A stretch of DNA of 57,593 nt from Myxococcota bacterium. GTDB lineage: Bacteria; Myxococcota_A; Polyangia; JAAYKL01. The position numbers were made by a program, and so were the translations under genes. The stretch spans positions 1 through 57,593 of the forward strand of contig JANQET010000163.1 of assembly GCA_028278265.1 (NCBI GenBank). Direction: 5' to 3'. Shown here in pieces: positions 2,650 to 55,423 of this stretch. A model generated the notes under the pieces. The model did not search any database. It saw nothing but the letters and a program-made list of their open reading frames with translations, and had not been told where the DNA came from. Numbering within the stretch: position 1 is the first letter of the stretch; each line of letters opens with the position of its first letter.

Positions 2650-3786
2650 TCAGTCACCGCCACAGCCGCCGCAACCACCGCACGAGGAACAGGACGAACA
2701 GGAGGAGCAGGAGGAGGAAAAATCGCCGCTGTCGCCGAAATCGAAAAAGCTCTCCGAATCCCCCATCTCGGTGCTCATTTCCCCTGTATCGAAGTCCACC
2801 CCGGCATCGGAGAGTTGGTCGCCGTATTCATTGGTTTCGTGAAAGCTCAGCTCCCCGTCGGTGGGAACTTCGAAATCCGCATCCGGATTCAGCGCGTCGT
2901 TGTCGCCCGCATAGAATCCGTCGGTTCCCACGTCCATGATCGATGCCCCGGATGTGTCGACGACCGAGCAATCGTGGCAATAGATGTTGTTGTGGTGCAT
3001 CATTTCAGCCCAGAGCATCGTGGTAAAGAGGTAGGTTCCGAATCCGGGATAGCCGTAAAAGAGTGGTGCCCCGGCCATCTGAGCCGCCGGTGCCGTCACC
3101 TCCTCCTCCCGGGTGACCCTCTTTTTGGGCCGCACGAGACAGCGTTTGGCCTCGATTTTCACGTCATCGCACTTGATCGATTTTTTGAGCGCCATCTTCA
3201 GCCGTTCGGTGAATCCCTCCATTGTAGCGTGAACGATGGCGACGAATTTTTCGTATTCTTCTTGTGAGGCAAAGATAGTGCCCACTCGGCGTTTGTACTC
3301 ATCGAGCGATTCATCAGCGGTTTTGGTTGCCTGCACGCTCATGCCGTTGATGACAATCTCGATGGGATAGACCCCGGCTTTGTGAATCCGGTTCACGTCG
3401 ACTTCGATGAGATACTTCATCATTTCGTCATCGTGTTCCAGGACTAGGGAGAGGGTGTTGAACACCTCCGCATCAATCCGATCCGCTTTTAGCTCAAAGG
3501 TCTCCATCGCCTCTTTGATGTCGTCTTTTTTGCCGTGTTGGTCGTAGTAAAAATCGAAGTCATCCTTGGACAGCCGGACGATATTGGTGATGCCGGCTTG
3601 TCTGAACGCCACGTTCAGCTGCTGCAGGATGGCGATGGCCGTAAAGGTCTCGTGTTCCTCTTTCTCACCGGCGACCAGACCGGCGGAGAGGAAGTGGAGA
3701 ACGCGGCCCCACATCTTGGTCGGTTTGACAGTGGTGATCAGGGATTGCTTGGCCGGGTCGAGTTCGATTTTTGCTGAGAGATACAT
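2650..3786 (-). CDS. Protein with acidic linker and (Cys-X-X)6 C-terminal tail
   Basis: A 378-residue protein of unknown function. Residues 1 to about 225 look like a folded alpha/beta domain rich in charged residues, with no signal peptide. A short stretch around residue 255 contains a YCHDC motif. Residues about 265-355 are a strongly acidic, low-complexity linker (Asp, Glu, Ser, Gly). The last 22 residues place six cysteines at exact three-residue spacing (360, 363, 366, 369, 372, 375), separated first by Ser-Ser and then by Gly-Gly. Regular Cys tails like this are seen on proteins or precursors modified by radical SAM enzymes, and one is encoded 15 bases downstream. The start has a good GGAGG site 7 bases upstream. 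The alternative reading is a metal-binding tail. Confidence 0.75.
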   Translation of the reverse strand: MYLSAKIELDPAKQSLITTVKPTKMWGRVLHFLSAGLVAGEKEEHETFTAIAILQQLNVAFRQAGITNIVRLSKDDFDFYYDQHGKKDDIKEAMETFELKADRIDAEVFNTLSLVLEHDDEMMKYLIEVDVNRIHKAGVYPIEIVINGMSVQATKTADESLDEYKRRVGTIFASQEEYEKFVAIVHATMEGFTERLKMALKKSIKCDDVKIEAKRCLVRPKKRVTREEEVTAPAAQMAGAPLFYGYPGFGTYLFTTMLWAEMMHHNNIYCHDCSVVDTSGASIMDVGTDGFYAGDNDALNPDADFEVPTDGELSFHETNEYGDQLSDAGVDFDTGEMSTEMGDSESFFDFGDSGDFSSSCSSCSSCSSCGGCGGCGGD

Positions 3787-4046
3787 CGGTTGTCCTCCGG
3801 GGTATTGGGCTCACCGGCACTATACAGAGCTTTGCCGTCGAGCGAAACGACAAGGGTATCACAGGGGGGCGATTCGAGCGGTTGAAGCGAGAAAAACAGT
3901 TTAATATCAGTATGTTGTCCGTCTCTGGTTGGTTTCGTTTATGCGGTCAATGTTTTTATTGACTATGGCTAAAAAAAGTGGTTTTCTCACTATGATTTTC
4001 TGCGATTAAAAAAAATAAGAAAAAATTTGCGAGAAAGGGTGTGCAA

Positions 4047-4511
4047 ATGCGTAACAATCGGAGAAATAACGGCTCGTTTTGGCTCATTTCTACTATTCTT
4101 TGTTTGATGGCACTGTTGATTTCGGTGGGATGCGACAGTGACAATCCCGAAGAAGCGGCGCCTCCCGGTGGAGAGTGCTCTGAGGAAGGTGCCCTGCGGT
4201 GCACCGGAATGATGCTTCAGCGCTGTGTATACGGCTACTGGGTCAGCTGGGCGGCTTGTGATCGCGGCGGAGAGACCTGCCAAGCGGTGGGCGGTGTGCC
4301 CCAATGCGTTTGCATAGAAGATCAAACCAAGTGCGTTGGCAATGTACTGAAAAAATGTGTGGGCACCGTGTGGACGGTTGCTGAAGATTGTGTCGCCTCC
4401 GGTGTATCCTGCCTGGACGTCCAGGGCGAGCCGATGTGCTGCTCGGCGATTACCGACGCGGGAACCTGTGCGGATGACGAGGGTGGAGATACCGACACCG
4501 ACACCGAATAG
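4047..4511 (+). CDS. Cys-rich lipoprotein with Asp-Thr tail
   Basis: A 154-residue secreted lipoprotein. The signal peptide ends in a lipobox (LISVGC, lipidated Cys29). The mature part holds two copies of a module of roughly 45 residues with the pattern C..G...C.G..L..C..G.W.....C..G..C....G.P.C, probably stabilised by disulfides. It ends in an Asp/Thr run (DTDTDTE), a miniature of the long acidic linkers in other surface proteins of this window. An upstream GTG at 4041 is in frame, but the ATG at 4047 has AAAGGG at a better distance. The function is unknown. The long AT-rich leader (3960-4046) probably holds its promoter. Confidence 0.75.
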   Translation: MRNNRRNNGSFWLISTILCLMALLISVGCDSDNPEEAAPPGGECSEEGALRCTGMMLQRCVYGYWVSWAACDRGGETCQAVGGVPQCVCIEDQTKCVGNVLKKCVGTVWTVAEDCVASGVSCLDVQGEPMCCSAITDAGTCADDEGGDTDTDTE

Positions 4512-4524
4512 GTGGCGTCCGCTC

Positions 4525-4686
4525 TCAAAATGTGATCAGACCTTCCGCAAACTGCCGGTATTTCTCAACCGCCTGCTCGCGATTATACTTCTCCACAACT
4601 GAACACCGGGTCGGCTTGATTTTCAGGGCACTCCCCGTTTCTCCTCCCTTCTTTGATGTCGACAGCGCTCCACTCAGATGAGTCAA
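4525..4686 (-). other. Possible remnant or small ORF opposite the arsR leader
   Basis: The minus strand between the lipoprotein and arsR is open for about 80 codons, and the last 53 could start at a TTG (4686). Its end reads like a real C-terminus with a charged amphipathic helix (VEKYNREQAVEKYRQFAEGL then a short tail). There is no ATG, no ribosome site and no recognised family, and the upstream part overlaps the arsR promoter. It may be the leftover 3' end of a deleted gene, or chance. Confidence 0.25.
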
Positions 4687-4708
4687 CTTTTTGGTTGCCC
4701 AGTCTTTG

Positions 4709-4738
4709 TTGTTGTGTAATATTTGAATATAGTAATAT
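4709..4738 (+). promoter_or_regulatory. arsR core promoter
   Basis: A TTGTTG (-35, 4709-4714) and TAATAT (-10, 4733-4738) lie 18 bases apart, 27 bases before the arsR ATG. The proposed operator occupies the spacer and the -10. Confidence 0.5.
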
Positions 4739-4741
4739 GCG
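4718..4741 (+). promoter_or_regulatory. Putative ArsR operator (arsR copy)
   Basis: A 24-base AT-rich site made of a near-palindrome ATATT-TG-AATAT followed by TAATATGCG. It matches the site in the sulfur operon promoter (10606-10629, minus strand) at 20 of 24 positions. The adjacent TATGCGCATA at 4736-4745 is a perfect 10-bp palindrome. The position inside the core promoter suggests autorepression. Confidence 0.6.
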
Positions 4742-4765
4742 CATAAATTCTCATTGGGAAATTAA

Positions 4766-5065
4766 ATGAGACCTCTTCGGAAACAGACTGAACATGCGGC
4801 CCTTGCGGCGGCAAAGATGAAAGCGCTCGGTCATCCCGTGCGGCTGCAAATCGTCGCCATCCTCAGTGAAGCCGATGCCCACGTAAACGCCTTGGCCGAG
4901 GAGCTCGGCTTGCCCCAATCGACAGTGTCGCAACATCTGCGCATCCTGCGTCTCGAAGGGTTGGTCGATGTGGTGCGGCGCGATGGCTTTGCAGTCTACA
5001 GCCTGCTGGAGCCGCGGATCAAAACCCTCCTCACCTGCATCGAGGGATGTCAGTGGTCGGGATGA
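4766..5065 (+). CDS. ArsR-family repressor, probable sulfur/persulfide sensor
   Basis: A 99-residue winged-helix regulator. The helix-turn-helix is clear (NALAEELGLPQSTVSQHLRI), followed by the wing (VDVVRRDGFAVYSL). The classical metal-site motif ELCVCD of ArsR/SmtB proteins is absent. The only cysteines are Cys91 and Cys95 near the C-terminus, a pair that could form a disulfide or polysulfide bridge, as in the persulfide-sensing BigR/SqrR branch (although those use more widely spaced cysteines). The gene is convergent with the sulfur reductase operon, its stop lying 9 bases from the end of the NrfD-like gene. Its promoter shares a 24-base site with the promoter of that operon, so the likely role is repression of both until sulfur compounds appear. 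Confidence 0.85.
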   Translation: MRPLRKQTEHAALAAAKMKALGHPVRLQIVAILSEADAHVNALAEELGLPQSTVSQHLRILRLEGLVDVVRRDGFAVYSLLEPRIKTLLTCIEGCQWSG

Positions 5066-18237: not shown

Positions 18238-19653
18238 ATGAAAACAGACCCGCTCACCGTGCTCATCGTCGATGATCAGCCGGCGGTTCTTCAGGCGTTG
18301 GGAATCCTGCTGGACCTGCACGATCTGCCCCACGTCAGTGCGTCCACACCCGAGGCGGCCTGTCGCATCGCGAGCAGCCAACCCCTGGGCGCGGTGATTC
18401 AGGACATGAATTTCGGGCCCAATGAGACCTCCGGTAAAGAAGGGGTGTCCCTGTTTCGGGCCCTGCGCGGGATCGACCCACAGCTGCCGATTTTGCTGAT
18501 GACCGCCTGGGCCTCGGTGGCGTCGGCGGTGGAGTTGATGAAGGAGGGGGCCAGCGACTATATCGAAAAACCGTGGAATGACGATCGGTTGATCGCCACC
18601 TTGAAAAACCTGCTTCGGCTGCGGGAGCTCGAGGTCGAGAATGAGCAACTGCGCGCGGCGACCGAGCGGTCTCGAGCGGCGCTGGCCGAGAAATACGATT
18701 TGAGGGGGCTCGTCTACGCCAGTGAAGAGATGCATCGGCTCGTCTCCTTGGCGACCAATGTCGCCGGCTCGGACGCCCCGATTCTGATCACCGGCCCCAG
18801 CGGTTCGGGCAAGGAGCGGGTGGCCGAGATCATTCAGGCCAATTCGCGGCGGCGGGAGGCGCCGTTCGTGCGGGTCAACGTTGGGGCGATCCCCGAGGAG
18901 CTGATCGAGAGCGAACTGTTCGGCGCCGAGGCCGGGGCCTACACCGGACTGAAAGGCCGTCGCATTGGACACTTTGAAACGGCCGATCAGGGCACGTTGT
19001 TTCTCGATGAGATCGACGGGTTGTCGTTGGCCGGCCAGGTCAAACTGCTGCGTGTGCTGCAGAGCGGAGAGCTGTTGCGCTTGGGCTCGAGCCGTTCCCT
19101 GAAGGTCGACGTGCGCATCTTGAGCGCCACCAACGCCCGGCTGGATGAGGCAATCCGAGCGGGTCGGTTTCGCGAGGATCTCTTTTTTCGGTTGAATGTG
19201 ATCGAGCTGGCGCTCCCCGGGCTCCGGCAGAGGCGAGAGGATATCGTGCCCCTGGCCGAACATTTTCTACAACGGTTCATTCGCGTTGAGCACGCACGGC
19301 CGGTCGTGCTGAGCGATGCGGCGTGCAACGCGCTTTGCGGGCACGATTGGACCGGTAATGTGCGGGAACTCGAGAACCGCGTTCACCGGGCGCTGTTGGT
19401 CGCTCGCGGGGAGGAGATTCTTCCCGGCGACCTGGATTTGGGCGGTGTGGCCGGTACGGCCGAGGCGTCAGACGGTCGACCCGCCGACGATCCGGCGACT
19501 GCGAGCGAACGCCAACAGGTGATCGACGCGCTCCATCAGGCACAAGGGGTGGTGGCCCGCGCGGCAGAAATCCTCGGGCTCAGCCGGCAGGCGTTGTACC
19601 GCCGAATGACACGCCTCGGTGTTCAACTCGAGCGAAAACCGAGAAGCCATTAG
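18238..19653 (+). CDS. NtrC-family sigma-54 response regulator
   Basis: A 471-residue regulator with three domains. The receiver (1-120) has acidic Asp12/Asp13, the phospho-acceptor Asp56 and Lys111. The AAA+ domain (about 155-390) has Walker A GPSGSGK at 186-192 and Walker B TLFLDEID. A Fis-type helix-turn-helix lies at the end (VVARAAEILGLSRQALYRRM). The sigma-54 contact loop reads GAYTGL instead of the nearly invariant GAFTGA. It lies in the operon it probably controls: a sigma-54 promoter with inverted-repeat sites precedes the adaptor gene at 12.2 kb. The sensor kinase follows immediately. Confidence 0.93.
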   Translation: MKTDPLTVLIVDDQPAVLQALGILLDLHDLPHVSASTPEAACRIASSQPLGAVIQDMNFGPNETSGKEGVSLFRALRGIDPQLPILLMTAWASVASAVELMKEGASDYIEKPWNDDRLIATLKNLLRLRELEVENEQLRAATERSRAALAEKYDLRGLVYASEEMHRLVSLATNVAGSDAPILITGPSGSGKERVAEIIQANSRRREAPFVRVNVGAIPEELIESELFGAEAGAYTGLKGRRIGHFETADQGTLFLDEIDGLSLAGQVKLLRVLQSGELLRLGSSRSLKVDVRILSATNARLDEAIRAGRFREDLFFRLNVIELALPGLRQRREDIVPLAEHFLQRFIRVEHARPVVLSDAACNALCGHDWTGNVRELENRVHRALLVARGEEILPGDLDLGGVAGTAEASDGRPADDPATASERQQVIDALHQAQGVVARAAEILGLSRQALYRRMTRLGVQLERKPRSH

Positions 19654-44287: not shown

Positions 44288-45954
44288 ACGGTCCGTCGAC
44301 CGATGCCCGACAGGGGATCCACCTGCCCGCTGTGGTGGTCGCCAGCGCCTACTTGGCCCTGTTGTTGATCACCGCGAGGCCGGTCGGCTTTTCCCGGGAT
44401 GAGGGATTTTACTTCAAGGCGGCCCGCAGCTACCAGGGCTGGTTCTCCGTGTTGTTCGATGAGCCGGGCCGGGCATTTCGGCGCGAATCAGTGGACAAAC
44501 ACTGGCGATACAATCACGAACACCCCGCCTTGATGAAGGTGCTGTTCGGCTTCAGCCATCGGCTGTTTCACCAGTCCCTCGGTCTGTTGTCACCGTCGAC
44601 TGCTTACCGGCTGCCCGGAATGGTCGCGGCGGCGATGGTAATTTACCTGCTCTTCGTCTGGGGAGCGCAGCTGTATGGACGACCGATCGGGCTCTTCGCC
44701 GCTCTGGCCTTCGGGTTTTTGCCGCGGGTGTTCTATCACGCTCATCTCGCCTGTTTCGATGTGGCGATCACCGCGGCGTGGTTACTGGTCTGCTATTTGT
44801 ATTGGCGTTCCCTCAGCTCCTGGCGGTTCGGACTGGCCGCCGGGGCGGCCTTTGGCGTGGCTATCTGCGTCAAGCTCAACGCTTTCTTTTTGCCGTTCCT
44901 ACTCGGGTTGCACTACCTGGTGCTGCTGGCGCATCGACGTCGGCGACTCGGGCGGTTGGCCTTCAAGGATGGGCCCAAACCCTGGGCCTTCCTCTTCGGC
45001 CTTCTGGTTGCGCCGCCCATTTTTTTGCTGCATTGGCCCTGGCTCTGGTTCGACACCTTTACGCGGTTGGGCCGGTACGTGGGATTTCATGCCGCCCACG
45101 CCCACTACAACACCGCCTGGTTCGGCGAAAATATCATCGGTCCACCGACGCCGTTGAGCTTGCCGGTGGTGATGACCCTGCTGACGGTGCCTTCGGTGAT
45201 TGTGCTGTTGTTTGTGGCCGGTGCACTGGTGCGCCTGCGGCACTACGTCGGCCGGCGGTTGGACCAGCGACTGTGGTCTTTTTGGCCGACCTTTGGGCCT
45301 CCCTCGCAAAACGGGCTCGACCTATTGGTCTGGTTTTCAGTGATCTTTCCCATCGCGTTGATCAGCATGCCCCACGTACCCATCTTCGGTGGGACCAAGC
45401 ACTGGATGCCGGCCTACCCGTTCGTCGCGCTGGTGGCGGGTATCGGCGTCTCCCATCTCATCGCCACCGTGGCCAACGGCCTGCCCCGGTTGCCCCGCCG
45501 GGTGGTGCAGACACTGGTGGTCATCGCCCTGCTCGTTCCTGCGGTGCAGCAGAGTCTCACCGCACATCCCCACGGATTGGCCAGTTATGTCCCCTTGGCC
45601 GGCGGGGCGCCAGGGGCCGCATCACTGGGGATGACCCGGCAGTTCTGGGGGTACACCACGGCCGGGATCGCTCCGTGGCTCAACGAAAATGCGCCCCAGG
45701 GCAGCACGGTCTTTTTTCACGACACCTCTGCGCCCTCAGTGGAAATGTTTCGGCGAGAGAGCATCGTTCGCCCGGATCTGCAATCCGCGCGGCTGCGCCG
45801 AGCGGACTATGCACTGGTTCACCACGAGCTGCACATGATCATGGTCGAGGCCTGGATCTGGAGCGACTTTCGCACCCATATTCCCGCCCATGTACTGACC
45901 TACCAGGGGGTGCCCCTGGTCAGTGTCTACCGCCGACCCTCCGAGACTCGGTAG
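44284..45954 (+). CDS. GT39/ArnT-like membrane glycosyltransferase
   Basis: A 556-residue integral membrane protein with about 11 helices. The first periplasmic loop has the acidic motif SRDEGFYFKAA typical of GT-C enzymes (protein mannosyltransferase/ArnT group), which use polyprenyl-phosphate sugar donors. NHEHPALMKVLFG is also characteristic. The C-terminal soluble part is about 90 residues long. The gene end overlaps the convergent transglutaminase gene by 35 bases. Targets could be lipid A, polysaccharide or surface proteins such as the Thr-rich linkers in this window. Confidence 0.88.
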   Translation: MNGPSTDARQGIHLPAVVVASAYLALLLITARPVGFSRDEGFYFKAARSYQGWFSVLFDEPGRAFRRESVDKHWRYNHEHPALMKVLFGFSHRLFHQSLGLLSPSTAYRLPGMVAAAMVIYLLFVWGAQLYGRPIGLFAALAFGFLPRVFYHAHLACFDVAITAAWLLVCYLYWRSLSSWRFGLAAGAAFGVAICVKLNAFFLPFLLGLHYLVLLAHRRRRLGRLAFKDGPKPWAFLFGLLVAPPIFLLHWPWLWFDTFTRLGRYVGFHAAHAHYNTAWFGENIIGPPTPLSLPVVMTLLTVPSVIVLLFVAGALVRLRHYVGRRLDQRLWSFWPTFGPPSQNGLDLLVWFSVIFPIALISMPHVPIFGGTKHWMPAYPFVALVAGIGVSHLIATVANGLPRLPRRVVQTLVVIALLVPAVQQSLTAHPHGLASYVPLAGGAPGAASLGMTRQFWGYTTAGIAPWLNENAPQGSTVFFHDTSAPSVEMFRRESIVRPDLQSARLRRADYALVHHELHMIMVEAWIWSDFRTHIPAHVLTYQGVPLVSVYRRPSETR

Positions 45955-48085
45955 GGGCATCGGGGCGGTCGGTCTGCGACGACAAGGTGTCGATAGCGGC
46001 TTTGAGCCGATTGGCCTCTTCGAGGGGGAGCTGTTCGGATCCAAAGCGTACCGCGTTGTAGCGCGCTGTGATCAGCGCCAGGCGATCGGCCAATAGCGGA
46101 TCCACTTGTCGGATGATGTCGAGGTGCTCCAGCGGTGTCGACATCGGTGCGCGGGGATGGCCCAGCCGGGTGAGCCGGCGATCCAAGCGGTGGTAGAGTT
46201 TGGTCGCTATCGTCAGGGAGCGCCGCGAACTGCCATGACCGGCATGCCGACGGAACCGGATGCGGTTGCGGCGGGCCCATTTGATCGCCAGCCAAAAGAG
46301 CAGCATCACCGGAGGGATCGCCAGGAGCCAGAGCAGCGGAGGTCGATTGCCTATGTTGACGAGTCGGTTTTTTTCGGCGAACCGTTTGATATTCGAGAGC
46401 AAGGAGATCTGGGAGGCCGCGTCGTAGCCGATGATGTATTTGTGCCAACGCATGCGCAACGCATCCAGCGCCAGGGTGATTGCCGGTGGCTTTCGCCGAA
46501 CCATCGCTCCCTCGGCGGCGGGGGTGGCGTCGAAGGTTTGCCAGGCCTGATTGAGGTACGCTTCGGTCCAGGAGTGGGCGAATCGCTTGCGGACCGCGTA
46601 GAATTGGCCGACCGTGTTCCAGTCTGCACCGGAAAATCCTGACGCGGCGCGGGCCGGTATCCCAATCGTCCGCAGCATGAGGGTCAGCGCAGTGGCAAAA
46701 TGCTCACAGGTCCCCGTCTTGCGGGCGAACAAGAACCGATCGAGCGGAGTGGCGGCCAAGGCGTTTCGCGGATCGTCGGCCAGGCGAGTGGCATAGCGAT
46801 AGTCCTGTCTCAGCCCGCGGATCACTCGGGTAATCTGTTGGCTGCGGGATCCTTGACCGGCATAGGTTTGGGCCAACCGGGCCAGCCGGGACGCGTTCGG
46901 CGGCAGCTGCAAGTAATCATTGTCCGGTCCCGGGGGGTCGCCAAAGGGGGGGGCGCCGGAGTGATAGACCCGGTACTGCAGTCCCACCTTGGCCTTGTCG
47001 TGGTAGCGAAGCATGCCCAAGGCGTTGCGTTGCAAGCGGCGGGCCCGCATCGTGCCGCCGGAGGCAATGGGGTAGGTGACGATTTCGGCGGTGCCTTCGG
47101 GGATGAACAGCACCGGGGGATCGATCGATTCCAGCAATACTTCGTAGCCAATCGATCGGCGGGTAGCATCCGGGGTGAGCCGATAGACCCCCCGCCGTCC
47201 GGCCGCGCGCGTCCACTGTTTCTGTTGTTGGCGCCAAGTGCGGTTTTGGTACGTATCGAATACGGCACCGCGTAGGCGAATCGGGAGGTGATCCGGACGC
47301 CCCCGCCCCTTCTGCGTGAGTTCCTGCTGCTCCAGCGGTTCGAGCCTGATCAGTACGGTCTCTTCGGTGCGCAGCAAGTCCATGTCCCCTAGGGTCATGC
47401 GGTCGGTGAATCCCACCGCGTTTTCACTGCGGGGCAGGCGGCCCAAAAAGCCGAAGCCGAGTCGAGGAAAGCTGACGAACAACAGGGCGGTGATCAGCAA
47501 CACCGGACCACTGAGCAATGTCGCGCTGACCAGGGTGCGCCAGGTGATGATCCGCTTGGAGTTGAACAGCCGTTCGAGGGTGGATCGGGCGTCGATGCGT
47601 TTGCTCGTGCCGAAGCGTTTCTCCATCTCACTGCGCAGGTGGGTCAGGATGAGCATCGGGGGTGAGAGCACGAGAAAGGCGACGAAGCTGATCGCGTACG
47701 ACAGGTCATCGAGGGCGATGGTCGAAGCGATAATCTGTAAAAAGGAGAGGATCGTGATCTGCTGATAGTCAGCGGACCATCCCCGACTGCAGAGCTTTAC
47801 CCCCAGAAGCACCAATGAGAACTCCATCCCCAGTCGGGCCATCGGCGTCCCGATCACCACCAATCGGATCAGCTGCAGGGCGAGGATGATGATCACCACG
47901 GCGACGATTCGGGGCCGATAACCCGGGTTGCGCGTCAATGGGGCCTCGAGCCACCACCCGCCGAGAAACAGCAGGGCGAACAGCACCGACCATTCGATGC
48001 CGACCTCCATCGAAAACATCAGTGGCGTTGCGGCGACGCCGGCCAACACGAAGGAGAGCAGTTTGTGTGCGGCGGCAAATTTCAT
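45920..48085 (-). CDS. TgpA-like membrane transglutaminase
   Basis: A 721-residue protein. About six N-terminal helices (1-225) of the DUF3488/TgpA type precede a periplasmic transglutaminase-like domain with the catalytic triad Cys (KTGTCEHFATAL), His (FAHSWTEAY) and Asp (FDATP), then a further helix (about 598-618) and a cytoplasmic tail. It is the last gene of the MoxR-DUF58-TgpA set and overlaps DUF58 by four bases. The family often appears with MoxR chaperone-like ATPases; the substrate is unknown. Confidence 0.93.
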   Translation of the reverse strand: MKFAAAHKLLSFVLAGVAATPLMFSMEVGIEWSVLFALLFLGGWWLEAPLTRNPGYRPRIVAVVIIILALQLIRLVVIGTPMARLGMEFSLVLLGVKLCSRGWSADYQQITILSFLQIIASTIALDDLSYAISFVAFLVLSPPMLILTHLRSEMEKRFGTSKRIDARSTLERLFNSKRIITWRTLVSATLLSGPVLLITALLFVSFPRLGFGFLGRLPRSENAVGFTDRMTLGDMDLLRTEETVLIRLEPLEQQELTQKGRGRPDHLPIRLRGAVFDTYQNRTWRQQQKQWTRAAGRRGVYRLTPDATRRSIGYEVLLESIDPPVLFIPEGTAEIVTYPIASGGTMRARRLQRNALGMLRYHDKAKVGLQYRVYHSGAPPFGDPPGPDNDYLQLPPNASRLARLAQTYAGQGSRSQQITRVIRGLRQDYRYATRLADDPRNALAATPLDRFLFARKTGTCEHFATALTLMLRTIGIPARAASGFSGADWNTVGQFYAVRKRFAHSWTEAYLNQAWQTFDATPAAEGAMVRRKPPAITLALDALRMRWHKYIIGYDAASQISLLSNIKRFAEKNRLVNIGNRPPLLWLLAIPPVMLLFWLAIKWARRNRIRFRRHAGHGSSRRSLTIATKLYHRLDRRLTRLGHPRAPMSTPLEHLDIIRQVDPLLADRLALITARYNAVRFGSEQLPLEEANRLKAAIDTLSSQTDRPDAPTESRRVGGRH

Positions 48086-49176
48086 GGTGCTCGCTGACGG
48101 CGGGGGGCGACCGCCATCTCGTCCAGTCGACGACCGCGGCCGATCGTCCCTGCCCGTTGACCCAGCAACAGAGCCCCCCGGGCCCGGCCGCGGGGGGGCG
48201 GTGAGCGACCGTCGGTGGTCACTTCGAGGAGTGCCAGGTGCTCCAACTGGGCGATCGCCTCACGCTTCTCCCGCGCTTCGATGATCCTCTCCGGCCCGGT
48301 GATCAGCCGCACGACCCCGCCCGAGTCCAACACGTCGCGGACAATCGTGCCGGCGATGCGAATGTTGTGCTCCAACTCGAGCCGCGCGGGAGTGCTGTCC
48401 TCTCTCAGCGCTGGATCGAGTACGATCTCGACTAGACCGCGGGGTTCGGCGTGGTTCTCTCTGACGAGCAATCGACTCAACCGGGCCGATGAGCGCCAAT
48501 GGATATTGCGGGGATCATCACCGGGGGAGATGTCTCGCAACTCCAAGAACTCCTGTCCGGGACCCCGTTGATCGGTTAACAAACCGTTTTCTCCTCCGGC
48601 CGCCAGCTGATGGGCCAACCGCAGGGGGAGGCGCGCCGGCAACACGATGATGTCGTCGGTCAGCGCAAAGAAGCGGCGCTTCTCGAACAGGCCGAAAGGG
48701 TAGCGCGTCGAGGCCATCGTCCCGCTGAAATGGGAGCGCCCGCGTTCATGTCGCTCGCAGTGGTAGGCGATCGCTTGGGACTCTCCCGGAGCAAGGCGCA
48801 AGAAGAAACAGCGCCGGCGAAACGGCTGTCCGTCGATTTCGTCCCGCAGCTCAACACTGAACGAGGTGGTGTGGGCCTTGCCGTTGTGCAATTTGAGCTC
48901 CACAGCGAAACTCGCTTCGGCCTCGACCCGTCGAGGAAGCTGGCGGGAGATCGTCAGCCCGCGCAGTGCAATTTCCGACAGAATGCCGCTGACGATGATC
49001 AGACCTAGCATCAAGCCGAGCACCAAAAAAAGGAGATTGTTGTTCGTATTGACCGCGGCAAAACCGACCCCCAGGGTGACGCCGACATAGACCTTCCCCT
49101 CGCGGGTGAAGGAGAGTCCTCGCGGAAACAAACGCCGTTTTAAGGTGACCCACCGATTCGGTCGGTTTGCTGTCAC
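48082..49176 (-). CDS. DUF58 domain membrane protein
   Basis: A 364-residue protein with two adjacent N-terminal helices (about 28-70) and the DUF58 signature (ELRDISPGDDPRNIHWRSSARLSRLLVREN), a VWA-related domain commonly serving as the MoxR partner. It starts with GTG at 49176, overlapping the MoxR stop by four bases (GTGA), and ends overlapping the transglutaminase ATG. Together the three genes form the conserved MoxR-DUF58-TgpA module. Confidence 0.93.
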   Translation of the reverse strand: MTANRPNRWVTLKRRLFPRGLSFTREGKVYVGVTLGVGFAAVNTNNNLLFLVLGLMLGLIIVSGILSEIALRGLTISRQLPRRVEAEASFAVELKLHNGKAHTTSFSVELRDEIDGQPFRRRCFFLRLAPGESQAIAYHCERHERGRSHFSGTMASTRYPFGLFEKRRFFALTDDIIVLPARLPLRLAHQLAAGGENGLLTDQRGPGQEFLELRDISPGDDPRNIHWRSSARLSRLLVRENHAEPRGLVEIVLDPALREDSTPARLELEHNIRIAGTIVRDVLDSGGVVRLITGPERIIEAREKREAIAQLEHLALLEVTTDGRSPPPRGRARGALLLGQRAGTIGRGRRLDEMAVAPRRQRAP

Positions 49177-50120
49177 AGGGGGATCTCCACCGAGGCGAGG
49201 ATGTCACCGATGGCGCGGGCGGCCATCTCCCGTTCGCCGCCGTCGTGCCAGTTGGTGCCCTTGGGAATGACCCGGTGGGCCAACACCGGAACGGCCAACT
49301 CCTTGATGTCGTCGATCAGGCAGTAGTCCCGATCGCGGACAAAGGCCAGTGCCCGGGCGGCCCGGTGCAGCGCCATCCCTCCCCGTGGCCCCACCCCCAG
49401 CTCGAGGAGATCGGTGTCTCGGGTGCGTCGGATCAGTTCCATAATGTAGTCGACAATCGCATCATCGACTCGAATTTGATCAATGGCCCGTACAATCCCT
49501 TGAGCCTCTGCCGGAGCAATCACCGGGGTCAGCGCCTCCACGGGATCGTCCAGTGTGGATCGGGCGATCACTTGCCGTTCGGCGGCGATCTTGGGGTAGC
49601 CCATTGAAATGCACATCATGAACCGATCGAGCTGGGACTCGGGAAGGGGATAGGTCCCGTGGTGTTCCTCCACGTTTTGCGTCGCCATGACCATGAACGG
49701 CCGGGGCAGATCCAGCTGGCTGCCGTCGACTGAAATGCGACCCTCGCTCATGCATTCGAGCAGGGCGGATTGGGTTTTGGGGGTGGCGCGGTTGATCTCG
49801 TCGGCGAGCACCACATTGCCGAAAATCGGACCCGGCTTAAAGGAAAACTCGCTGGATTTGGTCTCCCAGACCGATACCCCCGTGATATCGGCGGGCAGCA
49901 GATCGGAGGTGAATTGAATGCGGCGAAATTCGCCCCCGGAGGCGCGCGCCAGCGCCCGGGCCAGCGTGGTTTTACCCACCCCGGGAACGTCCTCGATGAG
50001 CAGGTGACCGCTGGCCAGGAAGGTGCAGACAGCCTGTTCGATCGCCCGTTGTTGACCGAGCAGCGCGCGTTCGACCATCTGGACGAGCTGACGTGTGGCC
50101 TGTTGAATTTTCGAGCTCAA
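49173..50120 (-). CDS. MoxR-family AAA+ ATPase
   Basis: A 315-residue AAA+ ATPase with Walker A (GVGKTTLARALA), a MoxR-typical stretch (FRRIQFTSDLLPADITG), Walker B (VVLADEINRATPKTQSALLE) and sensor motifs (MATQNVEEHHGTYPLPESQLDRF). MoxR proteins act as chaperone-like remodelers of VWA-type partners. The start is TTG at 50120, supported by AGGAG six bases upstream. It follows the second histidine kinase by 43 bases, so the two kinases and this module are probably one transcript. Confidence 0.93.
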   Translation of the reverse strand: MSSKIQQATRQLVQMVERALLGQQRAIEQAVCTFLASGHLLIEDVPGVGKTTLARALARASGGEFRRIQFTSDLLPADITGVSVWETKSSEFSFKPGPIFGNVVLADEINRATPKTQSALLECMSEGRISVDGSQLDLPRPFMVMATQNVEEHHGTYPLPESQLDRFMMCISMGYPKIAAERQVIARSTLDDPVEALTPVIAPAEAQGIVRAIDQIRVDDAIVDYIMELIRRTRDTDLLELGVGPRGGMALHRAARALAFVRDRDYCLIDDIKELAVPVLAHRVIPKGTNWHDGGEREMAARAIGDILASVEIPL

Positions 50121-50163: not shown

Positions 50164-51813
50164 TCAAGGCCCTGCCAAGGGCAGGCTCACGGTGAACACG
50201 ATCCCCTGTTGGCGATCGCTGTCCGCGCTGAGGGTTCCACCGTGCAGCCCGACAATGTCGCGGGCCAGCGCGATGCCCAGGGCGAGCCCCCCGGCATCTT
50301 CGGGGGAGAAGGCGCCGTCGACCGCGTTGACCGCCCGGTTGAACCGCTTGCGCTCCCCGTGGGGAATGGCGCGTCGGTTGTCGAGAATGACCACCTTCAA
50401 CCAGCCCTCGGGAGTGTCCTCGTGTCGCTCACGGGATGCCCTCAGGGTAATTGTACCCCGCTCCATCGAGTCGATCACGCGGGAGACCAGATCGAGCAGG
50501 GCCTGGCGAATTCGCGCCGCGTCCACATACACCGGCGGCAGCCCGGGCTCGAGCTCGCTGTAGAGCTCGATCGGTCGGTCCCCGATCAGCTTGCGCGCCA
50601 CGGTGCCGCACTCGGTGAGGATCTCCACCGAGGGGACCCAGCGCTGCTCCAGGTCCAGCCGCCCGGCTTTCAATTTGGAGGTGTCCAGAATGTCGGCCAC
50701 CAGCACGATGAGGCGTTCGGATTCCCGGGAGATGGACAGCAGCGCCTTGTGCGGCTTGTCCTCGATCGGACCCTCCATCCCCTTGAGCAGGAGCTCGGTG
50801 AAGCCGATCACCGAATTGAGCGGGCTGCGCAAATCGTGGCTCATTCCGGCGAAGAACTGGGTCTTCATCTCCCGGGAATAGTGGCCGGTCTCGATCGCGT
50901 TGATCTGGGCCCCGTGCAAGGAGAAGAAGCGGTTCTCCAACCGGCTCAGTTCCTGCTCGACGGCGCTGATTTCAGTTGGGGACTCACTGGTCACGTTTTT
51001 TTTCTTGCCGTGGGGAATCTCCTCCATCCGGGTGGCCAGCCGGGTCAGCCACCGTTTGATCCCCACCGACCCCAGGGTGGTGACCAGGCCGCAACCGAAG
51101 ACCGCGACCATCAATGTGGCGATGACGATGAGCCATGATTTGCGATCCACATCGGGCTCGAACTTGATGCCCACGATCCCCTCACCATCGGCCAATTCGG
51201 TCCAGACAAATCCCTCACCCCGCTCGTCGATGATGCTGTCAATCGTCGTCTGCCGGACGATTCGGCGAATCTGCTCTGCCTCGGCGCGGGCGACCCCCAC
51301 CCCCATCGGCGGATTTTCGAACAGGGCGAAGGGGGTGGCGTGATCGAAACTGGCCACGCGGGAGAGCTCTTCGATCACCGCTTCCCGCGAGGCTCGCTCT
51401 CTGGGGGTGAGCATCGCGCCGGCGAGCTGGCGGTAGCGTTCGAGCTGCCACTGCCGGGTCGTGTTGAGCACGATTCGTTCGGCGTAAAACGACAACACCA
51501 GCGTCATCAACAAGCTGGGAACAAACAGAATCCAGAAGAGCTGGAGGGTCATCGACCAGGCCAACGGCCGATCCGGCGGGATCTCATCAGGGCAATTGAC
51601 GAACCAGCGGGTCTTGACCTTGAGCAGTAACAGCCCCCCCAGCAATGCCAGCACCCCCAGTGCTGCCAAACACAGCGACCAGGGTTGCCATTGAACCAGG
51701 ATACCCAGCCAAACGATGGCGCTCACCCCGCCCAAGGCGACCAACCACAACAACAGGGTGTAGCCGATGCGGAGGGTCGCGATTCTGGGATCGGCGCGGG
51801 GTACTTTGCTCAT
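50164..51813 (-). CDS. Histidine kinase with intact His but degenerate ATP-binding domain
   Basis: A 549-residue membrane protein with two N-terminal helices (about 17-65), a third (about 91-112), a periplasmic loop and a fourth (about 228-248). HisKA is normal, with His326 in SHDLRSPLNS. The HATPase_c domain is present but damaged: the N box reads LLDLVSRVIDS (Asp441 and Arg445 in place of both Asn), the G1 box LDNRRAIP lacks its glycines, the F box is unrecognisable and the G2 box reads GGLALGIAL. It is unlikely to bind ATP. The ATG overlaps the stop of the partner kinase (ATGA). Together they look like a split kinase. Confidence 0.88.
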   Translation of the reverse strand: MSKVPRADPRIATLRIGYTLLLWLVALGGVSAIVWLGILVQWQPWSLCLAALGVLALLGGLLLLKVKTRWFVNCPDEIPPDRPLAWSMTLQLFWILFVPSLLMTLVLSFYAERIVLNTTRQWQLERYRQLAGAMLTPRERASREAVIEELSRVASFDHATPFALFENPPMGVGVARAEAEQIRRIVRQTTIDSIIDERGEGFVWTELADGEGIVGIKFEPDVDRKSWLIVIATLMVAVFGCGLVTTLGSVGIKRWLTRLATRMEEIPHGKKKNVTSESPTEISAVEQELSRLENRFFSLHGAQINAIETGHYSREMKTQFFAGMSHDLRSPLNSVIGFTELLLKGMEGPIEDKPHKALLSISRESERLIVLVADILDTSKLKAGRLDLEQRWVPSVEILTECGTVARKLIGDRPIELYSELEPGLPPVYVDAARIRQALLDLVSRVIDSMERGTITLRASRERHEDTPEGWLKVVILDNRRAIPHGERKRFNRAVNAVDGAFSPEDAGGLALGIALARDIVGLHGGTLSADSDRQQGIVFTVSLPLAGP

Positions 51814-53246
51814 TGGGCCACCGGCAAGGTCACGATGAACTGTGATCCCCTTTCAGTGGCGGCGCTGATGCGGATCGTTCCCCGGTGCAGCTCGACCAGT
51901 CGCTTGGAGATGGCCAGGCCCAATCCCGCCCCGCGCCGTCGGGTGCTCATCTCGCCCCGCTGTTGGAACGGGTCGAAGATCGACTCGTGGGCGCTCTGGG
52001 GGATGCCGATGCCCGAATCGCTGACCTCGACGATGACCTTGCTCGGACCAGTGGGCCGGATCTCGATTTGCACCTCCCCCTGCTCGGTGAATTTGATCCC
52101 GTTGCTGACCAGGTTGGTGAGCACCTGCCACAGGCGCTGCCGATCGCCGTTGACCAGGATCGGTTGTTCGGGAACATTCACTAGGATCTGGAGCGGTTTA
52201 TCCTCGAGCTCACCTCGGGCGGTCTGGGCCACTTCCCGGGCGATCTCGACCAGATCGACGGGTCGAGGATCGAAGGAGAACTGTCCGCCGAGCAGAACCG
52301 AAAAGTCGAGAATATCATCCACCAGTCGCAGCAACCGTCCGCTGGCCTGACGAATAATCCGCACATCGTCGAGTTGCGCCTCGGTCAGCTCCCCGTGACG
52401 ACCATCGACGATCTCTTCGGCCTGGCGATCGATCGCCTGCAACGGTGCCCTGAGCTCCTTGGCCACTGTGGAGAGAAACACGGTGCGCTGTTGATCGACG
52501 ACTTTGACTTCGTCCAGGGCGTCCCGGTAGATCGCCAGCTCGCCGGAGAAGCGCTGCTCCAGCGTGGCGATGGAGCGGTAGAGCGACTTGAGCTCCCGCA
52601 CCGCGGAGAGACAGAGATCCTCGGTCGCGACCGTGTCCCGTGGCTGCATCACTGCTGCCAACCGCCGCTTGAGACGGGCGAACACCGCGGCCACATCTCT
52701 GCCGTGTAGGTAGCCGAACCCGAGAACCGCAGCGAATAGAACCGCGGCCAGGGCGATCAATCCGCCGGTTCCGCCCAGGTGCGGCACCTGTTCGGCGAGC
52801 AACTGATCAGAGGCCAGGACCAGGGTCAGTCGTCCGTTGGGGGTGTAGACCGGCGCCGAGGCGACGATTTGATGGGCACCTTCGATCGACGTTTCGGTCA
52901 CCGGGGTGTTGATCACTCGGTGAAGCTCTTCCCGCGGGAGCTTGGCCAACGGGGTGGGCACCAGTGCGACCCCCCGGCGGTCGAACAAACCGACCTGGGC
53001 CTGTAGCTTGTCGGACAGGTCGCGCGTCAGCGCCTCCCGTTCCGATTCCTCGGTGCGCGAGAGCGCGTCGGCGAGCCAGACCGAGGCCATTCGCACCGTT
53101 TCGGCCAGGCCCCGTCTATCGTGGGTGCTCAGGCGCGCTTGCATGACGATTGTGACCACCAGGGTGGTCAGTAGGGGCAAGGTGGCGGCCATCAGGATAC
53201 ACCGCAGCACAATCGACGCCCTGCGTTTGGCTCGTCGGATAAACAT
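51810..53246 (-). CDS. Histidine kinase lacking the phospho-acceptor His but with intact ATPase domain
   Basis: A 478-residue membrane kinase with helices at about 13-36 and 161-181 and a periplasmic sensor of about 125 residues between them. The H box reads STVAKELRAPLQ: Lys263 (AAG codon) stands where the phosphorylated His should be. All ATP-binding boxes are intact: N box TNLVSNGIKFT (378-382), G1 DSGIGIP (410-416), F box IFDPF and G2 RGAGLGLAI (438-445). It could bind ATP and phosphorylate a partner but not itself. The partner kinase overlaps its stop by four bases and has the opposite defects. A receiver-domain gene is not nearby. Confidence 0.9.
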   Translation of the reverse strand: MFIRRAKRRASIVLRCILMAATLPLLTTLVVTIVMQARLSTHDRRGLAETVRMASVWLADALSRTEESEREALTRDLSDKLQAQVGLFDRRGVALVPTPLAKLPREELHRVINTPVTETSIEGAHQIVASAPVYTPNGRLTLVLASDQLLAEQVPHLGGTGGLIALAAVLFAAVLGFGYLHGRDVAAVFARLKRRLAAVMQPRDTVATEDLCLSAVRELKSLYRSIATLEQRFSGELAIYRDALDEVKVVDQQRTVFLSTVAKELRAPLQAIDRQAEEIVDGRHGELTEAQLDDVRIIRQASGRLLRLVDDILDFSVLLGGQFSFDPRPVDLVEIAREVAQTARGELEDKPLQILVNVPEQPILVNGDRQRLWQVLTNLVSNGIKFTEQGEVQIEIRPTGPSKVIVEVSDSGIGIPQSAHESIFDPFQQRGEMSTRRRGAGLGLAISKRLVELHRGTIRISAATERGSQFIVTLPVAQ

Positions 53247-53339: not shown

Positions 53340-54347
53340 ATGACACAAGATCAGATGAGCTGGTTGAACCACCACCGCAGCAACCCGGGGCGATCGCGCG
53401 TTCGTCCACGGGGGGACCGGATCGGCATTCCGCGCAGCCTCGCCTTTGACGAATTGCGCTGCTTTTTCGATTCGGTGCTCCAGTCCCACGGTCAAACCCC
53501 GTTCCATTCCCCCCGCAGCAGCCCCGAGATTCTCCGGCTCGGGTCGAGCCGCTGCATCGACGAAGTCTGCTTTCCGTTGAAGACCTTCTTCGGTCACCTG
53601 GCGGCGTTGCTCGAACAGGGGGTGGATACCGTTCTCGTTCCCCGAATTATCTCCACGGCTCGTGGTCGCAACCTCTGCCCCAAATTTCACGTGTTGCCCG
53701 ACCTGGTCGAGCAATCGTTCCCCGAGTTCAAGGTGTTGTCCCCCTATCTGGATCTGCACCACGCCAAAAAAAGGGATTTTCGCCAACACCTGTTTGCGGC
53801 GAGCCGCGCGATGCTGATTGAGCTCGGGGCCTGGCACCGACACTCGACCGAACAGCTGACCCTGGCCTGGCAACGGGAGAAAGAATGCCGGATCGACCCC
53901 CCTGATCCCCCTGCGGATCAACTGACCGTCGCCCTGGTCGGACATACCTACGGGGAAAGGGATCCCTTCTTGAACCTGCACTCGGCAAAGACCCTGTCGG
54001 ATCAAGGGGTCGCGGTCGTGGGGTCACCGGCGGTGCTGCCCGTCGAACCGAGCTTTCTCGAAGAGGGGATTTACTACGAGCCCACCTTTCGCACGGCCCG
54101 GGCGATTGACCATCACCTGCGCCGGGGTGTCGACGGTCTGGTTCTGGCGACCTATTTCGCCTGCGGACCGGACTCCTACGGGGCCGACACCTTCTTGTAC
54201 CGATTGAAGCGACAACAGGTGCGTGTGCCTGTGCTGCGGTTGATTTTTGACGAGCACACCGCCCCGGAGGGGTTGATCACCCGATTGACCACCTTCGTCG
54301 ATGTGGCCCGGCACTACCGGGAGCAGCGGTTGAACGAATCGTGTTGA
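53340..54347 (+). CDS. COG3580-like acyl-CoA dehydratase activase-related protein
   Basis: A 335-residue cytoplasmic protein related to the DUF2229/COG3580 region of 2-hydroxyacyl-CoA dehydratase activase-type proteins. Motifs are IGIPRSLAFDELRCFF near the N-terminus, SSRCIDEVCFPLKTFFGHL and NLCPKFH, whose cysteines could ligate an iron-sulfur cluster, and ATYFACGPDSYG. The ATP-binding BadF/HgdC module usually fused or adjacent to such regions is missing. The gene overlaps the next one (COG3581-like), so the two probably form a complex. The substrate is unknown. Confidence 0.78.
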   Translation: MTQDQMSWLNHHRSNPGRSRVRPRGDRIGIPRSLAFDELRCFFDSVLQSHGQTPFHSPRSSPEILRLGSSRCIDEVCFPLKTFFGHLAALLEQGVDTVLVPRIISTARGRNLCPKFHVLPDLVEQSFPEFKVLSPYLDLHHAKKRDFRQHLFAASRAMLIELGAWHRHSTEQLTLAWQREKECRIDPPDPPADQLTVALVGHTYGERDPFLNLHSAKTLSDQGVAVVGSPAVLPVEPSFLEEGIYYEPTFRTARAIDHHLRRGVDGLVLATYFACGPDSYGADTFLYRLKRQQVRVPVLRLIFDEHTAPEGLITRLTTFVDVARHYREQRLNESC

Positions 54348-55423
54348 AGATCTCCACCTCCCAAATCGGCTACTTGGGCGTGGGTATGAAAACCCTGGCC
54401 CTGGAGTTGGGCCATCAGTGGATCGATCCGGAACGGCCGGGCCGAAAGGGGCTCTTGCGGGCGAGACGGTTTTCCCCGGAGTATTGCTGCTATCCGTTCC
54501 GACTGGCGTTGGCTGATTGTCTCTCTGCGCTCGAGCGGGGGGCGGACACCATCGTATTTTTCGGGGGCAAAGGGATTTGTCGGCTGGCGATGTATCAGTC
54601 GGTTCAACGGGAGATCCTGACCCATGAGGGATGGCGGTTTCGGGCCCATGTGGTCTCCGGAAACATTCGCTCCAGCCTGTACGGCATACTTCGTTCCGAA
54701 TCCCCCCATGGCCAATCGATGTCGTATACGCCGCGCACCTTCATCGGATTTTGGAAGTTCATGGCCAAGCTGAAGGTGATCGAGCGGTGGCGCTACACCC
54801 TGCTCTCGGTTCGCCCCTACTGCATCGACCAATCCGCCGCCACGCAGCTCTTTTCCCGGCTCGTCTCCCAATTGGATAGGACCCATGGCGTCCTTGGCAT
54901 CCGCCGGCTTTCGAAAAAGGGCCTGCGAGAGCTGAATCGACTCGAGCAGGATCGATCGGTATTATTGCCCCGGATCGGCCTGATCGGGGAGTCGTACGCC
55001 TGTATCGACGAGTTCACCAACCGCCGCATCATCGAGCGGCTCAACAGAATGGGCATCGAGGTGGTCTCCCCCATCTCGGAGTACAAGTTCATGTCCGTAG
55101 TCACGCGGCTCTATTACAAAACCGAGGCTTCACGCATCGCGCAGGCCCGCCGGTTTTTCAAGGCACCCGGGGGCGGAGATTCGCTCCTTTCGGCGGCCTA
55201 TGCGATGGAGTTCGCCCGCACCACGGATGGGATCTTACACCTCTATCCGTTTACCTGCCTGCCCGAAACCTCTGTGCGCCAGGTGATCACCCCCTACCTG
55301 GCCGAGCGGGCGGTGCCCTATTTTCATTTCAACCTCGACGAGCAGATGGCCGAAGAGGGGTTTGCCACCCGGTTGGAGACCTTTGCCGACATGGTCCGCA
55401 TGCGCGCGAAACCCGGCGAGTGA
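54341..55423 (+). CDS. COG3581-like partner of the activase-related protein
   Basis: A 360-residue protein resembling the COG3581 half of the same family. Conserved elements include PEYCCYPFRLALADCLSAL, a GADTIVFFGGKGICRL strand-loop and FTCLPETSVRQV; several cysteines may bind an iron-sulfur cluster. The start is GTG at 54341 or TTG at 54344, both overlapping the previous stop and indicating tight coupling. COG3580 and COG3581 proteins occur together but normally with an activating ATPase, which is not encoded in the window. Confidence 0.75.
   Translation: MLKISTSQIGYLGVGMKTLALELGHQWIDPERPGRKGLLRARRFSPEYCCYPFRLALADCLSALERGADTIVFFGGKGICRLAMYQSVQREILTHEGWRFRAHVVSGNIRSSLYGILRSESPHGQSMSYTPRTFIGFWKFMAKLKVIERWRYTLLSVRPYCIDQSAATQLFSRLVSQLDRTHGVLGIRRLSKKGLRELNRLEQDRSVLLPRIGLIGESYACIDEFTNRRIIERLNRMGIEVVSPISEYKFMSVVTRLYYKTEASRIAQARRFFKAPGGGDSLLSAAYAMEFARTTDGILHLYPFTCLPETSVRQVITPYLAERAVPYFHFNLDEQMAEEGFATRLETFADMVRMRAKPGE

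Follow-up and report, generated by a model that had tools for sequence, protein, structure and literature searches.

Can the active site of a membrane histidine kinase be divided between two full-length proteins, one binding ATP and the other carrying the phospho-acceptor histidine? The question is raised by two adjacent genes in a 57,593-nucleotide stretch of DNA from a Myxococcota bacterium (contig JANQET010000163.1; the whole stretch is called the window hereafter). Both genes lie on the minus strand and encode membrane histidine kinases: K1 (51810..53246, 478 aa) has no acceptor histidine, and K2 (50164..51813, 549 aa) has an acceptor histidine together with a degenerate catalytic domain. 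The usual view of a histidine kinase is that of a homodimer whose chains can each both donate and accept. Judging from the residues retained and lost, we consider it likely that K1 and K2 together make up a single membrane sensor kinase, each supplying half of it, in which phosphate would pass from K1-bound ATP to His326 of K2 within a heterodimer.

Reciprocal residue losses in K1 and K2

The first-pass annotation of the window had described a lysine at the acceptor position of K1 beside perfect ATP-binding boxes, the reverse condition in K2, and an overlap of the two genes. All of these descriptions hold in residues, coordinates, and strand. Lys263 of K1 (codon 52458..52460, in the motif VAKELRAPL) aligns with the acceptor histidine of 6azr, which we take to be HK853 of T. 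maritima, in the best solved-structure alignment. The N box (NLVSNGIKF, residues 378-386, 52089..52115), G1 box (DSGIGI, residues 410-415, 52002..52019), and G2 box (GAGLGL, residues 439-444, 51915..51932) of K1 are intact. K2 keeps His326 (codon 50836..50838) in SHDLRSPLN, but its N box (DLVSRVIDS, residues 441-449, 50467..50493), which aligns with the normal N box of 7z8n in the best solved-structure alignment, has lost both Asn residues. Its G1 box (DNRRAI, residues 478-483, 50365..50382) retains the Asp alone, the glycines being lost, and its G2 box is altered (GLALGI, residues 509-514, 50272..50289). All of these motifs are encoded on the minus strand, where the stop codon of K1 and the start codon of K2 overlap as ATGA (51810..51813). 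At the window pair, the acceptor histidine and the ATP-binding boxes are thus never found in one protein, as K1 is without the histidine and K2 without the N and G1 boxes.

Alignment to Pfam models, which the first-pass annotation had recommended, recovered both HisKA and HATPase_c in each protein, at 34.5 and 102.7 bits in K1 and at 60.1 and 46.7 bits in K2. Since all four matches exceed the cut-offs, a domain scan calls two ordinary kinases. No Pfam domain other than these two reached the cut-off in K1 or K2, so the pair is without REC and HPt relay domains of the RcsC/RcsD type. Structure prediction returned DHp and catalytic folds at moderate confidence (mean pLDDT 57 and 58 overall), and the sensors were uninterpretable.

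Conservation of the losses among related pairs

K2 was searched in 14 genomes of the window's family at E 1e-30, and a K2 profile was run against 317 genomes of the window's myxobacterial class, probably the Polyangia of GTDB, and against 377 genomes drawn from the phylum. In the phylum sample, the 21 profile matches at E 1e-80 all fall within the window's own class; at weaker E-values ordinary kinases were matched as well. We examined 89 loci (the window, 8 from its family, and 80 from the class), of which 78 carry tandem pairs and 71 were retained. The 80 class loci are the top of two lists ranked by K2 likeness, with some rows skipped, and more distant pairs may be missing. Left out were 11 loci in which no tandem pair was found, some on short contigs (L170, L184, L189, L207, L208, L213, L214, L218, L224, L226, and L227), six whose members both looked complete and were judged by eye from their boxes to be other kinases (L201, L202, L211, L222, L230, and L231), and the fused locus of genome G005 (L041). 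Each catalytic domain was scored for ten hallmark residues, and a score of at least 8/10 was called complete, a cut of our own choosing.

Within the family, the pair occurs in nine of the 14 genomes: K1 adjoins K2 as a separate gene in eight, including the window, and is fused to it in G005. The remaining five genomes gave no K2 match at 1e-30, and for K1 they gave only lower-scoring matches at the level of ordinary kinases (four genomes) or none (G008). At the thresholds used, and with the fusion counted, K1 and K2 are therefore jointly present or jointly absent. In all eight unfused family pairs the acceptor site of K1 is occupied by K, V, A, R, L, or Q and all ten hallmarks are kept, whereas K2 has its histidine and only 3-4 hallmarks.

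Across the class, the acceptor histidine of K2 is kept in 71/71 pairs, and K1 scores at least 9/10 in 70/71. K2 scores below 8/10 in 62/71, and 51/71 combine a complete K1 with a degenerate K2. Among the nine K2 proteins scoring at least 8/10, three keep all ten hallmarks, four are without the first N-box Asn, and two are without both G1 glycines. The K1 histidine is lost in 10/71 pairs, eight in the window's family and two in a second family, f20 (where the site holds Gly or Val), and K2 scores 3-4 in all ten. Judged by residues, acceptor and ATP-binding functions are thus on separate proteins in the window, the seven other unfused family pairs, and the two pairs of the second family. A four-base overlap of the K1 and K2 frames is found in 32 of the 71 pairs. 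A scan of contigs kept 80 loci; the first eight inspected comprised four true pairs (L073, L076, L077, and L079, from genomes already sampled) and four single ordinary kinases.

The survey qualifies the candidate split kinase of the first-pass annotation. The complementary defects are conserved, as would be expected of a split kinase, with the fused G005 protein adding to the one exception among the K1 hallmarks, but the split state itself belongs to the window's family and, independently, to one other.

Set against ordinary kinases, the losses exceed chance. As controls we took 105 kinase domains from 91 other loci (113 matches, of which 8 incomplete ones were omitted). The second N-box Asn and the DxGxG motif are kept in 105/105. 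The histidine is kept in 104/105, where the lone exception may be a misalignment and the count is biased upward, the controls having been chosen by similarity and mostly with a pattern of which the H box is a part. The 72 loci of the contig scan that served as controls contain no degenerate catalytic domain.

Order of the losses

A tree was built from concatenated K1-K2 cores with the trait columns blanked. It groups almost wholly by host family, which points to vertical inheritance of the pair. Loss of the K1 histidine maps as two changes on this tree. A single group of the ten histidine-less pairs, a grouping named after the states had been seen, is rejected by the approximately unbiased (AU) test (p-AU 0.0086), and is still rejected without three long-branched rows (AU p 0.0059). 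Loss of the K2 catalytic residues requires two changes if regain is allowed; without regain, our reading of the tree, by eye rather than by a computed value, is at least four losses. The likely order is that the K2 catalytic domain decayed first and the K1 histidine was lost later. The first-pass annotation had held that homologous loci with a complete kinase would indicate random decay or sequencing error. Such loci are frequent, as the counts above show for K1 and, less often, for K2; the distribution of the states nevertheless agrees with the tree and resembles stepwise evolution rather than random decay or error.

The degenerate parts also appear to be maintained by selection. Three close species of one genus were compared, and for each of the two genes the ratio of nonsynonymous to synonymous substitution rates (dN/dS) falls within 0.13-0.38 whether the sensor, DHp, or catalytic part is considered. 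These values were taken from the longest frames, and the K2 start may be placed too early in two of the three species, which affects the sensor values alone. Because the ratio is low in every part, both the degenerate domain of K2 and the histidine-less helix of K1 appear to be kept under constraint.

A proposed hetero-kinase

In the mechanism that we propose, the DHp helices of K1 and K2 would pair in a four-helix bundle, the ATP-loaded catalytic domain of K1 would phosphorylate His326 of K2 in trans, and K2 would in turn phosphorylate a response regulator whose gene lies elsewhere. Because the catalytic domain of K2 is without ATP-binding residues and the K1 helix is without an acceptor, neither homodimer should signal in the window's family, and the mixed dimer would be obligate. 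The arrangement probably arose stepwise, from two complete tandem kinases, through decay of the K2 catalytic domain beside a complete K1, to two separate losses of the K1 histidine, one of them in the window's family. For the class as a whole we lean, with some reserve, toward a tandem pair that has been becoming an obligate membrane hetero-kinase by reciprocal active-site loss: the K2 site would have gone first and repeatedly, and the K1 histidine then in two lineages, leaving a one-way flow of phosphate in which the mixed dimer alone signals.

Covariation between K1 and K2 was measured over 70 pairs (L216 omitted), with shuffles made within families. At or near equivalent positions, the DHp signal exceeds that of the shuffles (5/200 reach the observed value) whereas the catalytic domain signal does not (18/60), which weakly supports the proposed pairing. 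The Glu that follows the acceptor site (Glu264 of the window K1, 52455-52457) is kept in 10/10 histidine-less K1 proteins. The residue four past the acceptor is Thr or Ser in 61/61 histidine-bearing K1 proteins and is altered in 9/10 histidine-less ones; in K2 it is Ser, Ala, or Gly in 71/71, never Thr. E/DxxT/N is a phosphatase motif, and its form in K2 hints that the phosphatase activity of this protein may be weak.

The first-pass annotation had further proposed a coincidence detector, in which two different periplasmic sensors must meet before a signal is sent. Hydropathy predicts two transmembrane helices in the window K1 (residues 16-34 and 162-180) and four in K2 (residues 22-40, 46-64, 92-110, and 228-246), the longest loops being 128 and 118 residues, respectively. 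In genome G004, the pair keeps both defects, yet its predicted inter-helix loops are only 12-13 residues long, with almost no extracytoplasmic domain; two periplasmic sensors thus seem not essential to the design. The K2 sensor half alone, searched against 95 other genomes, gave a single weak match (E 3.8e-5, G004:C112), located away from the K2 of that genome; in three family genomes, full-length K2 alignments extend as far upstream as residues 92-136. The coincidence detector is accordingly a weak part of the earlier proposal.

Comparison with known kinase pairs

The closest precedent is that named in the first-pass annotation, CheA3/CheA4 of Rhodobacter sphaeroides. In that functional model, neither protein autophosphorylates alone, and a mixture of the two phosphorylates the acceptor protein (PMC3591291). 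As in K1 and K2, where the division is judged by residues, acceptor and ATP-binding functions sit on two proteins. CheA3 and CheA4 are, however, CheA-type kinases of a cytoplasmic cluster (PMC6829392) that miss whole domains, P1 in CheA4 and P3 and P4 in CheA3, whereas K1 and K2 belong to the membrane HisKA kinases and retain every domain, the losses being limited to key residues. The authors of PMC3591291 estimated the number of further split kinases from proteins with a missing HATPase domain. K2 still matches HATPase_c and is therefore not a HisKA protein without HATPase_c, so the pair would escape such a count.

Other systems share single features with K1 and K2. Both RetS, which ranks high among the solved structures matched by K2, and its partner GacS are membrane sensor kinases, and their interaction is inhibitory; unlike the proposed K1-K2 dimer, they are not known to share an active site. 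HK1/HK2/TcrA of Mycobacterium tuberculosis is a split kinase in which one part carries the ATP-binding domain and the other the histidine, the split being one of truncation and the regulator being adjacent. K1 and K2 differ in being full-length proteins with no adjacent regulator found. The M. tuberculosis system is listed as two kinase genes and one regulator (Rv0600c-Rv0601c-Rv0602c; PMC8965865).

Loss of the acceptor histidine on its own has also been described. In DivL of Caulobacter it is replaced across orthologues by Tyr, or by Ala in one species (PMC4211667). DivL resembles K1 in this respect, but its suggested partner CckA served as the active kinase control in that study, whereas K2, the partner of K1, is without catalytic residues. 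In enterobacteria, RcsD is without the conserved histidine and interacts with RcsC in two-hybrid assays (PMC3762810). RcsC/RcsD is thus, like K1/K2, a membrane kinase pair with one histidine-less member, but there is no reciprocal loss: RcsC is an active hybrid kinase, a cascade via RcsD is proposed, and the paper argues that each protein can act alone, RcsD being labelled with ATP (PMC3762810). A Caulobacter paper speculates that a histidine-less kinase might form a heterodimer (PMC11481889). In the literature searched, from which most subscription journals were absent, we found no description of K1 and K2, or of any two membrane kinases that have lost residues reciprocally, in line with the first-pass annotation, which knew of no membrane sensor pair of this design.

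Exceptions and alternative explanations

Several observations weigh against the hetero-kinase. Genome G199 has a degenerate catalytic domain in each protein, and K2 can therefore persist without an intact K1 catalytic domain. In G005 the fused protein has no K1 catalytic domain at all, so K2 can persist without that domain as well. Both loci weigh against a strict rule, although the G005 fusion also places K1 and K2 in one chain, which we count in favor of their acting together. No receiver domain was found near the window pair; the sole one listed on the contig, with 150/246 candidates scored, is at 18259-18603. Most K1-K2 covariation survives the family-preserving shuffles, and at exact positions the catalytic domains give a signal almost equal to that of DHp. 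Lastly, the co-occurrence of a replaced histidine with degenerate boxes, which the first-pass annotation had singled out as a check, is complete in all ten pairs; however, it reflects just two independent events on a background in which 62/71 pairs already have a degenerate K2, so that taken alone it has no statistical power and no significance can be attached to it.

The two exceptional loci have features of their own. At the G199 locus (L216), which has the longest branch of the tree, K1 (2755-3795) and K2 (3549-4871) both keep the histidine and are followed by relatives of MoxR, DUF58, and TgpA. At the G005 locus (L041, 949-7099), a single frame of 1042 aa unites K2 with a K1 that has no catalytic domain; the overlapping frames after it encode a complete kinase and a regulator judged NtrC-like by eye from its sequence.

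These loci bear most directly on a different role for the pair. K2 could be a membrane histidine phosphotransfer protein that is phosphorylated by some other kinase or by reverse transfer from a regulator, and K1 would then be a DivL-like allosteric partner that senses ATP. G199, with no intact catalytic domain in either protein, would fit such a role, as would G005, where the K1 catalytic domain is gone but a complete kinase and a regulator lie next to the fusion. DivL itself, with Tyr for His, acts without kinase activity and is read as a DivK~P sensor (PMC4211667). Yet the ATP binding of DivL is weak (PMC4211667), and K1 keeps at least nine of its ten hallmarks in all pairs but one, more strictly than would seem necessary for an allosteric role. 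We regard this explanation as rather unlikely.

Still less probable is that K1 and K2 are signalling-dead scaffolds or ligand-binding regulators in which the complementary pattern is incidental. The variable sensors, the response regulator not being adjacent at the window pair, and again G199 and G005 would all fit such proteins. The invariant K2 histidine and the nearly invariant K1 hallmarks would not, given that the other two modules have been lost repeatedly, and neither would the purifying selection seen in both genes. Random decay, or a fault in the sequencing or assembly of a single draft genome, can hardly account for the pattern, for although the window is one contig of a 516-contig assembly, seven other unfused family pairs carry both defects, with six different acceptor-site residues including that of the window, in open frames with low dN/dS.

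Neighboring genes

Three genes follow K2 on the minus strand, and the frequency of their relatives was counted in the pair loci as fetched. A MoxR-type AAA ATPase (49173..50120; Pfam AAA_3, 1.9e-59) has a same-strand relative in 24/71 loci from 9 families. Next come a DUF58 protein (48082..49176; Pfam DUF58 at 2.4e-4, below the cut-off), with same-strand relatives in 21/71, and a TgpA-like membrane transglutaminase (45920..48085; Pfam TgpA_N, Transglut_core, and DUF4129), with same-strand relatives in 17/71. By their offsets, the relatives too lie downstream of the pair. These neighbors suggest that the pair may serve an envelope-related process in those lineages. None of the three was seen in any of the 18 pair loci of family f11, and the best DUF58 match of G005, like that of G006, is on another contig.

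Elsewhere in the window, another histidine kinase match lies at 190-876 on the minus strand, and two DUF2229-type (CoA enzyme activase) genes, the second with a match below the Pfam cut-off, occupy 53340-55423, divergent from K1. In 13 loci of family f7, members of one group of related genes lie upstream of the pair; the one member scanned, at L185 (5418-6392), encodes an electron-transfer-flavoprotein alpha subunit.

Significance of the pair

Split kinases are already known; what is new here is a full-length membrane kinase pair with reciprocal residue losses. Donor and acceptor functions have apparently been separated twice in full-length membrane sensors, and apparent intermediates persist in related families. 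Because both proteins match both domains, such pairs escape domain-based annotation and may outnumber what missing-domain counts suggest. If the proposed mechanism is true, the operon would offer a natural system in which to study one-way trans-phosphorylation and the passage from a homodimeric enzyme to an obligate heterodimer. It would allow tests of whether heterodimers of kinases are real units of signaling and of the sequence in which an active site is split between subunits.

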